Assembly (NCBI GenBank): GCA_010031635.1 | Contig: RGZI01000003.1 | Location: 1-49,279, forward strand | Source: Actinomycetota bacterium | GTDB lineage: Bacteria > Actinomycetota > Actinomycetes > Nanopelagicales > Nanopelagicaceae | Reading direction: 5' to 3' | Length of the DNA: 49,279 bases | Shown: one piece after another, positions 22,229 through 37,642 of the stretch | How the letters are laid out: every line of letters starts with the position of its first letter | Numbering within the stretch: position 1 is the stretch's first letter | Notes under the pieces: generated by a model | Told to the model about the DNA's origin: nothing | The model's database searches: none | The model's input: the letters and a program-made list of their open reading frames with translations, nothing else | Program-made: the position numbers and the translations under genes

Positions 22229-22253
22229 GTGATCAGCGTAGGGTGTGATCACT

Positions 22254-23156
22254 ATGGGATCTAGCGTATTTAAGGCAGTTATTCCGGCGGCCGGTCTGGG
22301 TACTCGTTTTTTGCCAGCGACCAAGTCGATCCCAAAAGAGATGCTCCCGATTGTTGATAAGCCGGCGATTCAATATGTAGTGGAAGAAGCCATTCGTGCA
22401 GGTTTAAGTGATGTGTTATTAATTACTGGAAGAAATAAAGGTGCGCTTGAAGATCATTTTGATCGAGCTATTGAACTTGAGGCAACATTAGAAAATCGTG
22501 GCGATGTTGAAAAGTTAGCAGCAGTCAAGCAAATAACTGAACTCGGTAAAATCCATTATGTACGTCAAGGAGATCCGCTCGGACTCGGTCATGCTGTTCT
22601 CACAGCTGCTAATCATGTCGGCAATGAAACTTTCGTAGTTTTACTTGGCGATGACTTAATTGCTGAACAAGACAACTTATTAGGTGAAATGCTTGATGTG
22701 CATAAAAAATTTGGAGGAAGTGTAATTGCTTTGATGGAAGTTCCTGATTCTCAAGTTTCGCTCTACGGCATCGCATCAGTAAAAAAAACCGACTCACCTA
22801 ATATTGTGGAAATTTTAGATTTAGTTGAGAAACCTAATGTTGAGAACGCTCCATCAAATTTTGCAATTATTGGCAGATATGTATTAGATCCTGCAATTTT
22901 TAAAGTATTGGAGAAAACGCAAGCCGGTCGTGGTGGCGAGATTCAATTAACTGATGCAATTCGCGAATTGGCGGTAAATGAGAAATTAGGCGGCCCAGTT
23001 CATGGAGTTATTTTTTCAGGGCGACGTTATGACACGGGCGACCGTGTTAGCTATTTGAAAACAGTAGTTGAATTAGCAAGTGAAAGAGCAGATATTGGCG
23101 GCGAGTTTACTGTGTGGTTGAAAAATTTTGTTGGGAATTTGAATGGAAAACGTTGA
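22254..23156 (+). CDS. galU: UTP-glucose-1-phosphate uridylyltransferase
   Basis: KAVIPAAGLGTRFLPATKSIPKEMLPIVDKPAIQYVVEEA. Confidence 0.97.
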   Translation: MGSSVFKAVIPAAGLGTRFLPATKSIPKEMLPIVDKPAIQYVVEEAIRAGLSDVLLITGRNKGALEDHFDRAIELEATLENRGDVEKLAAVKQITELGKIHYVRQGDPLGLGHAVLTAANHVGNETFVVLLGDDLIAEQDNLLGEMLDVHKKFGGSVIALMEVPDSQVSLYGIASVKKTDSPNIVEILDLVEKPNVENAPSNFAIIGRYVLDPAIFKVLEKTQAGRGGEIQLTDAIRELAVNEKLGGPVHGVIFSGRRYDTGDRVSYLKTVVELASERADIGGEFTVWLKNFVGNLNGKR

Positions 23157-24033
23157 AAGTTATTTAAAGCAACTCTTATTGCTGGCCCAACCATTGGCAC
23201 CGCTAGATTTACCATTATTAGATGCACATGGTGCGACTCTTGCTTCAGATATTGAAATAGGAAGCCGCAAAGTATTAACAGGCGGCAGTCGAATTAGATC
23301 TACACACATCGGGATAGCTGCCTCTGTTGGCCTAGATCACCTGCCTACACACCCACATCCTCGCGTAGTAGTTATTTCAGCTGGTGGAGATTTGACTGAA
23401 CCAGGTGAGCAACTTGAAACTGCTCATTTTTACGAAGTTAACTCTTGGTTATTAACCACATCAGTCCGAGAGGCTGGAGCAATTGGTTATCGGGTACATA
23501 CAATTCCAACAACCTCGGCACAACTTCGATTACTGATTGAAGACCAACTTGTGCGTGCTGATCTCATAGTCATTACAAGTGGACCAGAGTCCGAGGAGAT
23601 GACTCAAGCAGCACTAACTGAACTTGGAATTATTAGTAAAATTCAAATAGAGATGAACCCAAGTGGAAGCCATAGTTTTGGCTTAATTGGACCAGATAAG
23701 ACGCCGGTAATAACTTTGCCAACCGACCCAATGACCTCATTTATTTCATTTGAATTATTTGTGCGGCCAATGATTCGCCAGATGTTTGGCAGAAAAAATA
23801 TTTTGCATCCAACTTTAAATGCGAAATCGATAGATGCAGTTAACTTTGAGGCTGGAGCACAGCGATACCTTCCAGCGATCACAGATTTAACTCATAGTGA
23901 AAAAACGGTTAAAGCTCTAGCTGTAGAAAATTGGGCAGATGCTAACTCTTTTATAATTGTTCCAGCGGGAGTCAATAATTTAGTAGCCGGAGAATTAGTT
24001 TCTGTGATGAATCTTGAGTTGAGAGCTGATTAA
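23143..24033 (+). CDS. MoeA/gephyrin-E-like protein lacking domain II (Glp-like)
   Basis: MoeA-type domain I, III and IV segments (LPLLDAHG, HPRVVVISAGGDLTEPGE, YEVNSWLL, VPAGVNNLVAGELVSVMNL); central domain absent; overlaps galU by 14 bp. Confidence 0.85.
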   Translation: MENVESYLKQLLLLAQPLAPLDLPLLDAHGATLASDIEIGSRKVLTGGSRIRSTHIGIAASVGLDHLPTHPHPRVVVISAGGDLTEPGEQLETAHFYEVNSWLLTTSVREAGAIGYRVHTIPTTSAQLRLLIEDQLVRADLIVITSGPESEEMTQAALTELGIISKIQIEMNPSGSHSFGLIGPDKTPVITLPTDPMTSFISFELFVRPMIRQMFGRKNILHPTLNAKSIDAVNFEAGAQRYLPAITDLTHSEKTVKALAVENWADANSFIIVPAGVNNLVAGELVSVMNLELRAD

Positions 24034-24034
24034 A

Positions 24035-24562
24035 GTGTTGCTGCGAAATAGTGAAATAAAATTACGACCACTACGCAGAACCGATAAAAAAGAGTGGGAG
24101 CAACTTCGATACAATAATGAAAAATGGCTTAGCCCGTGGGAAGCCACCTCTCCAGATCCATTGATTTCATTACCAACCTTCCAGCAGATGAGAGCATTCC
24201 ATCGACGCGAAGAGAAGGCTTTGCGATCAATTACCTGGGCAGTGATTTACCAGGGAAGAATTTCTGGCCAAGTTACCTTGGCAGGAATCTCATTTGGCTC
24301 ATATCGAGGGGCCCATATCGGTTATTGGATCACCGAAGAACTAGCTGGACGAGGATTTATCCCAATAGCTGTGAATTTAGTGAGCGAATACGCCTTCAAA
24401 GAACTGGGGTTGCATCGCTTGGAAATTTCTATGCGTCCAGAAAATGTTGCTTCAAAGCAGGTAGCGCTCAAATGTGGATTTGAATTTGAAAGTTTACGAA
24501 AGCGGTTTTTACATATCGATGGCGATTGGCGAGACCATCACACTTATGTGAAACTCCACTAA
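24035..24562 (+). CDS. GNAT N-acetyltransferase, RimJ-like
   Basis: IGYWITEELAGRGF, GLHRLEISMRPENVASKQVALKCGFEFE. Confidence 0.9.
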   Translation: MLLRNSEIKLRPLRRTDKKEWEQLRYNNEKWLSPWEATSPDPLISLPTFQQMRAFHRREEKALRSITWAVIYQGRISGQVTLAGISFGSYRGAHIGYWITEELAGRGFIPIAVNLVSEYAFKELGLHRLEISMRPENVASKQVALKCGFEFESLRKRFLHIDGDWRDHHTYVKLH

Positions 24563-24619
24563 TCAACACACTCCTTAAATCCATGATTTGAGCCATCCGG
24601 ACTCGTATCGTTGACCATC

Positions 24620-25297
24620 ATGAGTTCTGGCTTGATCTACTTCGCAGTCGTCGCAATGTGGGTAGCGTATTTCCTTCCAAGATGGCTACGAACCCATGAC
24701 GAAATTTCAGACAATAGAAGTTTAGAGCGGTATCAGAGTGCCATGAGTTTGGTATCACTAGGTACTAGCCATGAAAATCTTCCAAGTCGTACAGAGGTGG
24801 CTGAAAATAAAATTCGCCAAATGCGCCAACGTCAACTTATTTTGATCGGACTCGCTGCAATTTTTCTAATTGTTTTTATTTCAACTTTATTTGGTGGAGT
24901 TCCTTTTAAAACAAATGCACTTCCTCTTTCACTTATTTTAATTTATGTTATTCATGTTCGCAGACAAAAAATTGTTGAAGAAGTTGCAACTCGCCGTAGG
25001 CTTGCAGCAGCGAGGGCGACAAACGGCGTTCGTGCGAATTTTTCAGATGTGCTGTATCGCTCTAATGAAAGTGCGACTGAACATTGGATTCCATTACGCC
25101 CATCCACCACAGTCACTGTTATTCCTAACACAACGTGGCAACCATTAGATGTTCCACTTCCAACATATGTCACAGCCCCTAAGGCAACCTCTCGACCAAT
25201 GAAAGAGGTAGCTACTAAAGTAGAAGTGGCAGTAGGGCCAGATGAGATATTTGATCAAGTTGCCGTAGAAGAAGCGGATTTACGCGCTGCAAATTAA
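24620..25297 (+). CDS. Membrane protein, Rv0996/GLPR-like
   Basis: N-terminal TM + YFLPRWLRTHDEISDNRSLERYQSAM, two further hydrophobic segments, basic cytoplasmic region; synteny galU-moeA-rimJ-this gene. Confidence 0.75.
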   Translation: MSSGLIYFAVVAMWVAYFLPRWLRTHDEISDNRSLERYQSAMSLVSLGTSHENLPSRTEVAENKIRQMRQRQLILIGLAAIFLIVFISTLFGGVPFKTNALPLSLILIYVIHVRRQKIVEEVATRRRLAAARATNGVRANFSDVLYRSNESATEHWIPLRPSTTVTVIPNTTWQPLDVPLPTYVTAPKATSRPMKEVATKVEVAVGPDEIFDQVAVEEADLRAAN

Positions 25298-35452: not shown

Positions 35453-37642
35453 ATGTCTGGAGTGTCTGGAGTGTCTGGTAAGTCTGGGACATCTGCCGGT
35501 CCAGTGATCTTTATTCTCGCTGCAGGTGAAGGCACGCGGATGCAATCTCAACTTCCCAAAGTTTTACATAAAGTTTTAGGCCGCACACTTATTGAGCATG
35601 TAATCGATGCGGCTAATGATTTAAACCCTAGCCAATTAGTAGTTGTTGTTGGTGCACATCGAGATTTAGTTGAAGAGGTGGTTAGCAAAGTTTCACCTGG
35701 TGCAAAAATCGTGGTTCAAGAAAAACGCGGTGGAACTGGCCATGCTGTTCGAATAGCGTTAGAAAATGTAAAAGTATCTGCAGAGACTCCCATATTGGTT
35801 TTAGCTGGTGATATTCCACTTATTACTTCAACAACTTTGCTATCACTATTAGATACGCATGTAGCAGAACAAAATTCGGCCACAGTTCTCACTGCAGAGA
35901 TAGATGACCCTGAAGGTTATGGACGAATTGTGCGAGATGGAAGTGATGGAATTCTAAGAATTGTAGAAGATCGAGATGCAACAGAGATAGAGCGCGAAAT
36001 AACTGAAATAAATTCCAGCGTTTACGTTTTCAATTCACATGATCTTGTTGATTCGTTGAGCAAAATTAATAATAAAAATGCCCAAGGTGAAGAGTATTTA
36101 ACTGATGCTATCGGAGTATTGCAATCGACAGGTAAGCGAGTAGAACCAGTTATTGTTGAAGATTTCATTGAAATTCTGGGAGTGAATGATCGTTTTCAAC
36201 TATCTGAGTGCACTGCATTATTACGCGATCGGATTAACCTACATTGGATGAAAAATGGCGTGACCATGATTGACCCAACAACTGTTTGGATTGACCCAAC
36301 TGTTTCATTATCGCAAGATGTAATTATTTATCCAGAAGTTGCGCTCGCCGGGAATACATCTATTGAAAGCGGAGTAACCATCGGAGCCCGAACTACCTTA
36401 ATTAATTGTGAAGTTAAAAGCGGTGCAAATATTCGCGACTCATATTGCGATGGAGCTCAAATTGGGGCTGAAGCTACGGTCGGACCATTTTCCTATTTGC
36501 GACCTGGAACTGTTTTAGAAAAGGGCGTAAAAGTTGGGGCTTATGTTGAGGTAAAGGAATCTCAAATCGGTGCCGGATCTAAAGTGCCACACCTTTCATA
36601 TATTGGAGACACCACAATTGGTGTTGGAACGAATATTGGCGCTGCAACCGTAACTGTGAATTATGACGGCGTAGAAAAGCATCAGACAGTGATCGGCGAT
36701 CATGTTCGAATTGGCAGTGACACGATGTTGGTTGCGCCACTTTCAATTGGCGATGGGGCTTACACGGCCGCAGGATCTGTAATTACTGAAGATGTTCCGG
36801 CGGGTTCAATGGGCGTTGGACGTGCGCGTCAACGTAATATCCTCGGGTGGGTGCTGCGCAAGCGCAGTGGAAGTGACAAACACATAATGGAACAATTGAT
36901 TATGGTTGATGCGCTAAAGCGTGCATCTGCAAAAAGAATTACGGTCGTTGCGCCTTTCTATGGTTACGCACGTCAAGACAAGAAGCACCGTGGACGCGAA
37001 CCAATCTCAGCTCGATTGATGGCAGATCTGTTTAAGACTGCTGGCGCTGATCGCTTAATGGTTGTTGATTTGCACACATCACAAATTCAAGGATTTTTTG
37101 ATGGGCCGGTTGATCATCTCTTTGCACTTCCTTTGCTGGCAAATTACGTCGGTAGCAAAGTTGATAGATCGCGATTGACAATAGTTTCACCAGATTCTGG
37201 CCGAGTTCGAGTGGCTGAACGTTGGAGCGATTTGCTAGGTGGCTGCCCTATTGCCTTTATCCATAAAACCCGTGACCCAAGAATTCCAAATGAATCATCA
37301 ACTGGAAGAGTTGTTGGTGACGTCAAAGGACAAACTTGCGTAGTAATCGATGACATGATCGACACGGCTGGAACAATCACTAAAGCAGTTGATGCACTTT
37401 TTGAAGATGGAGCAGCAGAAGTAATAATCGCAGCAACGCATGCGGTTATGTCAGGACCTGCGATTGAGCGTTTACGTAATTCGCGTGCCAGTGAAATCGT
37501 GATTACCGATACTCTGCCGATTGCAGATGAATGGAAATTTGATCGATTAACTGTGCTTTCAATCGCCCCACTTCTTGGTCGAGCAATTCGTGAGGTTTTT
37601 GAAGATGGATCGGTCACCAGCCTCTTTGATGGCCATTCCTAA
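35453..37642 (+). CDS. glmU-prs: GlmU (N-acetylglucosamine-1-P uridylyltransferase/acetyltransferase) fused in frame to ribose-phosphate pyrophosphokinase lacking its N-terminus
   Basis: GlmU: LAAGEGTRMQSQLPKVLH ... AGSMGVGRARQRNILGWVLRKRSGS; Prs from HIMEQLIMVDALKRAS, YARQDKKHRGREPISARL, VVIDDMIDTAGTI. Confidence 0.9.
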   Translation: MSGVSGVSGKSGTSAGPVIFILAAGEGTRMQSQLPKVLHKVLGRTLIEHVIDAANDLNPSQLVVVVGAHRDLVEEVVSKVSPGAKIVVQEKRGGTGHAVRIALENVKVSAETPILVLAGDIPLITSTTLLSLLDTHVAEQNSATVLTAEIDDPEGYGRIVRDGSDGILRIVEDRDATEIEREITEINSSVYVFNSHDLVDSLSKINNKNAQGEEYLTDAIGVLQSTGKRVEPVIVEDFIEILGVNDRFQLSECTALLRDRINLHWMKNGVTMIDPTTVWIDPTVSLSQDVIIYPEVALAGNTSIESGVTIGARTTLINCEVKSGANIRDSYCDGAQIGAEATVGPFSYLRPGTVLEKGVKVGAYVEVKESQIGAGSKVPHLSYIGDTTIGVGTNIGAATVTVNYDGVEKHQTVIGDHVRIGSDTMLVAPLSIGDGAYTAAGSVITEDVPAGSMGVGRARQRNILGWVLRKRSGSDKHIMEQLIMVDALKRASAKRITVVAPFYGYARQDKKHRGREPISARLMADLFKTAGADRLMVVDLHTSQIQGFFDGPVDHLFALPLLANYVGSKVDRSRLTIVSPDSGRVRVAERWSDLLGGCPIAFIHKTRDPRIPNESSTGRVVGDVKGQTCVVIDDMIDTAGTITKAVDALFEDGAAEVIIAATHAVMSGPAIERLRNSRASEIVITDTLPIADEWKFDRLTVLSIAPLLGRAIREVFEDGSVTSLFDGHS

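Follow-up and report, generated by a model that had tools for sequence, protein, structure and literature searches.

A domain II-less Glp encoded beside SepX/GlpR in Nanopelagicaceae as a probable cell-division scaffold

The glp locus

The window, that is, the whole stretch of 49,279 nucleotides that was analyzed, comes from a fragmented MAG (85% complete, 6.4% contamination) of Nanopelagicaceae, which we take to be the abundant freshwater acI group. Four genes are tightly packed on its forward strand, overlapping or separated by short gaps (Table 1), as the earlier note had described: galU, a 296-aa MoeA-like ORF (glp), a gene for a RimJ-like GNAT acetyltransferase (rimJ), and one for a membrane protein (glpR). 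The 3' end of galU overlaps the start of glp, and rimJ sits between glp and glpR in the loci that we have read. The adjacency of galU and glp, although present here, is unusual in Nanopelagicaceae, being detected in 4 of 80 loci. Upstream of glp, galU is also found in the genera g6 and g14, in the families f5 and f39, and in the class-wide loci; in g6, the gene order is galU-glp-moaC-mogA-rimJ-glpR (L245). galU is the ancestral neighbor of glp.

Table 1. Genes and protein features of the glp locus, in window coordinates
Feature	Position	Strand	Evidence or comment
galU (UTP-glucose-1-phosphate uridylyltransferase)	22254..23156 (GTG start at 22245 also possible)	+	Pfam NTP_transferase, E 3e-29
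Domain II-less Glp (MoeA homologue), 296 aa, domains I, III, IV only	23143..24033	+	
Pro-rich hinge 1 (AQPLAPLDLPL)	23185..23217	+	signature from PMC10522489
Domain II junction, between residues 39 and 40; predicted beta-hairpin, residues 37-45	23251..23277	+	alignment, predicted secondary structure
Pro-rich hinge 2 (LPTHPHPRVVVI)	23341..23376	+	signature from PMC10522489
EDQLVRAD, Glp-specific segment in domain III	23539..23562	+	kept in Glp of either length but not in canonical MoeA
Eroded GGVSxGxYD catalytic motif (SGPESEEM), residues 146-153	23578..23601	+	alignment with full-length relatives
Equivalent of the C. glutamicum Glp FtsZ-binding loop (PAITDLTHSEKTVKAL), key residues not conserved	23872..23919	+	loop from PMC10522489
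rimJ-like GNAT acetyltransferase	24035..24562	+	Pfam Acetyltransf_3, E 4e-20
SepX/GlpR membrane protein, 225 aa from ATG	24620..25297 (TTG start at 24611 possible)	+	NCBIfam SepX_GlpR_2, E 5e-30, under cut-off
GlpR tail motif TWQPLDVPLPTYVTAPKA, putative Glp-binding segment	25133..25186	+	alignment over three lineages

The best sequence, fold, and NCBIfam matches of the 296-aa protein are all to Glp, and its neighbor is a SepX/GlpR protein, in agreement with the earlier assignment of the locus to the Glp/GLPR type. In sequence, the protein matches the Glp structure 8bve with E 3e-32 and Escherichia coli MoeA with E 1e-10. The best of all NCBIfam models is NF045515 (Glp; E 4e-66), with a score of 223.6 bits, which is under the 475-bit cut-off in part owing to the absence of a quarter of the model from the short protein. 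For the membrane protein, the best NCBIfam match, SepX_GlpR_2, scores 105 bits vs. a cut-off of 150 bits.

Domain II loss and the decay of catalytic motifs

In the 296-aa ORF, Pfam detects MoCF_biosynth, MoeA_C falls just below the cut-off, and MoeA_N is not found. In the alignment, residues 39 and 40 (window 23259/23260) directly abut at a clean junction where full-length relatives have ~106 aa carrying the PPFDNSAMDGYA (MDGYA segment), RIMTGA, and GED segments of domain II. The gap is domain II, since the crystal structure of C. glutamicum Glp places this domain at residues 46-145 (PMC10522489). The absence of domain II had been recognized in the earlier note, although the domain I segment LPLLDAHGATLASDIEIGS, placed there at about 23263, spans 23209-23265. 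The replacement of the GGVSxGxxD motif by SGPESEEM is found exactly where it had been reported. The protein therefore lacks one of the four domains of C. glutamicum Glp and, of the features that define MoeA, both domain II with its MDGYA motif and GGVSxGxYD. With domain II and the catalytic motifs gone, it cannot serve as a normal molybdate insertase, as had been supposed, and is very likely enzymatically dead.

The AlphaFold2 model (45 alignment rows; pLDDT 93.2, pTM 0.90) has two short strands, residues 37-39 and 42-45, which we read as a hairpin in the place where domain II would be. The top Foldseek match of the model is C. glutamicum Glp (E 6e-30), followed by E. coli MoeA, Cnx1E, and gephyrin, so that the fold supports the proposed kinship with Glp. 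E. coli MoeA, plant Cnx1E, and the animal gephyrin E domain share the fold of domains I, III, and IV with the window protein, but have domain II, a working or near-intact active site, and other partners. Gephyrin, too, has a MoeA fold and serves membrane receptors as a scaffold. C. glutamicum Glp (Cgl0883; PDB 8bve/8bvf; NF045515) has the same rimJ and glpR neighbors, the Pro-rich hinges, and an eroded active site; it differs in having domain II and the FtsZ-loop residues, and proteins of the window type occur in genomes where the molybdenum-cofactor (Moco) genes sought were not found.

Matches to the window Glp were found in 143 of 151 Nanopelagicaceae genomes and in 194 of 201 genomes of the order sample, which held only Nanopelagicaceae; full-length proteins in the family (404-405 aa) are restricted to the genera g6 and g14. 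The 296-aa form is present without stops in four congeners (89-95% identity, dN/dS 0.07-0.15), and the same junction is shared by 25 non-redundant members of the family. A deletion introduced by sequencing or assembly, or a decaying pseudogene, could be suspected in a fragmented and partly contaminated MAG, but was rejected as hardly credible, given that the same short form and junction recur in congeners and family-wide, single-contig genomes among them, that selection is purifying, and that the fold is confident. The loss, which the earlier note had allowed might prove a sequencing deletion, is thus ancient, family-wide, and recurrent.

Outside Nanopelagicaceae, the best matches in the class-wide sample are full length. 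Two further short forms were found, L190 in family f39 (genus g94, 1.5-Mb genome) and L199 in family f5 (genus g72, 1.4-Mb genome), each with a full-length relative within its family; the model of L190 has pLDDT 93.5 and its best match is also Glp. On a tree built without domain II columns and without C. glutamicum Glp, the domain II state requires three changes (bootstrap 5-95% range 3-3). The f39 pair is supported at 92/96, and L199, although on a long branch, lies inside the starred f5 clade. The window protein falls in the Glp clade, and the canonical MoeA proteins of Nanopelagicaceae (L115-L140) form a clade apart from the Glp-locus proteins (100/100). Small-genome Actinobacteria have therefore lost domain II on at least three occasions, the number being a lower bound from the sample read. 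Neither a MoeA or Glp devoid of domain II nor any Glp from Nanopelagicales was found described in the non-subscription literature searched.

Molybdenum-cofactor genes at the locus and in the genomes

Of the 30 best class-wide loci, 29 have moaC next after glp, and the remaining one stops at a contig edge; mogA and rimJ come after moaC in 25. The catalytic motifs are intact in the full-length proteins checked from this moaC-bearing group, and MoaA is present in 13 of its 14 genomes. By contrast, the loci of short forms carry neither moaC nor mogA in any of the three loss lineages; the motifs are eroded there and kept where moaC is present. Proteins from f5 (g21), f39 (g95, copy L197), f29, f16, and f11 look like an intermediate state, being full length with eroded motifs and no moaC or mogA seen at the locus. 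MoaA was not found in f5, in f39 g94, in f16, in f11, or in genome G293; it is present in G354 and G245, each of which has a further MoeA copy. When the loss of moaC was compared by independent pairs with the loss of the motif and of domain II, 2-3 contrasts were obtained, none of them against expectation and too few for significance, with two moaC-bearing rows scored as lacking the motif owing to an over-strict pattern. Genome G354 (f39, g95) has two copies of the Glp clade, the motif-eroded L197 beside rimJ-glpR and the motif-intact L206 beside moaC, as if the enzyme and scaffold roles were split between them.

The earlier note had pointed to other Moco genes as a check. Neither MoaA nor canonical MoeA was found in the window's MAG (85% complete) or in most Nanopelagicaceae genomes, where Glp is nevertheless kept. 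In counts that ignore relatedness, 37 genomes of the family have both MoeA_N and MoaA and two have each alone, while the presence of Glp is independent of MoaA (38/39 genomes with MoaA and 105/112 without it, relatedness again ignored). Fourteen single-contig genomes have Glp, with neither MoaA nor MoeA_N found. The canonical MoeA proteins are homologous to the window Glp, but retain domain II and the active-site motifs and co-occur with MoaA.

Two individual MoeA matches deserve mention. The only MoeA_N match in the window's MAG is an 88-aa piece (L243; G000:C11:3-266, - strand) at the end of a 3.5-kb contig; it looks foreign and probably belongs to a contaminant contig, and was not accepted as a second moeA. 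Among the congeners searched, a separate canonical MoeA occurs only in L127 (G026:C30), in a 647-aa open frame near moaA that is possibly a fusion.

A continued role of the short protein in Moco chemistry, using the retained parts of domains III and IV, is very improbable. The MoCF_biosynth domain is still detectable and some genomes with the short form do have MoaA, but the protein lacks domain II and the GGVS motif, MoaA is missing from most genomes with the short form, and 37 of the 39 genomes with MoaA have MoeA_N, usually in a separate canonical MoeA and, in g6 and g14, in the Glp-locus gene. That Glp and GlpR are kept where MoaA and canonical MoeA were not found, with domain II deleted on at least three occasions, makes abundant freshwater bacteria a large natural experiment, which provides strong comparative evidence for a non-enzymatic retained function.

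GlpR, FtsZ, and a probable role in cell division

A GlpR homologue is encoded downstream of glp in all 76 readable loci, four others ending at a contig edge. GlpR binds Glp in C. glutamicum (PMC10522489), and GlpR/SepX is required for septation in Streptomyces (PMC8748795). Like known SepX/GlpR proteins (Cgl0885; Streptomyces SepX vnz_14865; NCBIfam NF050099), the window protein is encoded downstream of glp-rimJ and has an N-terminal hydrophobic segment and a central pair; of the three transmembrane helices and two cytoplasmic disordered regions of SepX/GlpR, TM1 and TM2 are flagged by simple hydropathy, and TM3 and the disorder were read from the alignment alone. Its tail motif is conserved within the lineages read, and the form WxPxxxPxPTYV recurs across GlpR lineages. 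The first cytoplasmic region is ~46 residues (27-218 in C. glutamicum) with a predicted pI of 6.9, as opposed to the acidic C. glutamicum counterpart, and the tail has pI 5.4, where that of C. glutamicum GlpR is basic. Unlike for the known proteins, no DivIVA was found that it could bind. GlpR is the likely partner of the window Glp.

The catalytically dead, domain II-deleted Glp is probably a protein scaffold that acts in cell division together with SepX/GlpR. The ancestral MoeA, encoded in a galU-moeA-moaC-mogA-rimJ-glpR operon, would have been both a molybdate insertase and a partner of GlpR. When Moco synthesis was lost or passed to a separate MoeA, moaC and mogA would have left the locus, the active site would have decayed, and domain II, which only the enzyme requires, would have been excised, leaving the beta-hairpin, with domains I, III, and IV, RimJ, and GlpR remaining under purifying selection. 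We infer that the short Glp dimerizes via the retained domains and that GlpR, perhaps via the tail motif, anchors it at the membrane, where it may help to stabilize the FtsZ/SepF ring.

The position of rimJ between glp and glpR in all three domain II-loss lineages raises the question of whether the conserved unit is mainly a partnership of Glp with RimJ, in which Glp might, for instance, scaffold the acetyltransferase or be its target and division would come second. We consider this unlikely, as C. glutamicum interactomics link Glp with GlpR, FtsZ, and SepF (PMC10522489).

The published Glp signature comprises two Pro-rich hinges and the FtsZ-binding loop (PMC10522489). Both hinges, between domains I and III, are kept in the window Glp. 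The Glp-specific segments that survive catalytic decay include P17 (near-invariant) and P71 (invariant) of the hinges, EDQLVRAD, GPDxTP, and ExFVRP, none of which lies in domain IV. The latter, which binds partners in C. glutamicum Glp (PMC10522489), shows about twice the variability (mean entropy 1.93 vs. 0.97 bits), and the FtsZ-binding loop residues M361 and Y369 are not conserved, with an uncertain alignment in this variable stretch. Hence the earlier inference of a retained Glp architecture lacks support where it concerns what Glp uses for FtsZ: the hinges and the Glp-contacting residues of the FtsZ tail are retained, and the loop residues are not. In C. glutamicum, FtsZ binding and GlpR binding both depend on this loop (PMC10522489); the loss of its residues suggests that any contact here is made differently.

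It is accordingly quite possible, at somewhat less than an even chance, that the Glp-GlpR scaffold no longer touches FtsZ directly, its working face being formed by domains I and III, GlpR, possibly together with another protein, acting as its partner, and the link to the ring coming from GlpR or SepF. The distribution of Glp-specific conserved positions, the variability of domain IV, the lost loop residues, and the retention of GlpR in every readable locus would all fit. On the other hand, loss of the loop counts against either contact in the known mode, that with GlpR included, and the FtsZ tail of the window genome, EELDIPDFLK, keeps the equivalents of the contacting residues L435, V437 (as I), P438, and F440. 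SepF, encoded within the ftsZ cluster of this genome, may by itself explain the conserved tail. As a minimal scaffold, the domain II-less Glp lends itself to structural work and indicates the surfaces that are under constraint.

In the window genome, DivIVA, the known partner of GlpR, was not detected, and its domain model had no match over the cut-off in 101 Nanopelagicaceae genomes, although a diverged protein could be missed. In three fully read ftsZ clusters and in g6 (L249, L250, L251, L252), yggT and the convergent ileS directly adjoin, with no divIVA between them. For an actinobacterial family, a lack of detectable DivIVA is unusual. If the lack is real, the Corynebacterium Glp-GlpR-Wag31 link cannot operate here, and the GlpR-Wag31 half of the known pathway seems to be missing in Nanopelagicaceae; a septation role like that of Streptomyces SepX could still operate.

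In g6 and g14 (L111-L114, L245, L246), the MoeA_N match is the full-length, motif-intact Glp-locus gene itself, beside moaC. It is the only MoeA found in these genomes, which have MoaA and a molybdopterin-enzyme domain (PF20256), and therefore one protein may do both jobs. On this gene content, it is a candidate bifunctional MoeA/Glp, and the ancestral protein may have done both the enzyme and the scaffold jobs as well. More tentatively, Glp might have originated as a moonlighting, bifunctional MoeA, a state persisting in g6 and g14, and might have been repeatedly stripped to a three-domain scaffold upon Moco loss; in Nanopelagicaceae, where no DivIVA was found, it would work with GlpR via a domain I/III face rather than via the Corynebacterium FtsZ-binding loop. 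The intact single copies in g6 and g14 raise the question of whether Glp was always separate from the enzyme.

Elsewhere in the window (35453-37642, + strand), one 729-aa ORF looks like a fusion of GlmU with ribose-phosphate pyrophosphokinase in which the GlmU C terminus and the kinase N terminus are apparently missing; it is either genuinely fused in frame or misassembled.
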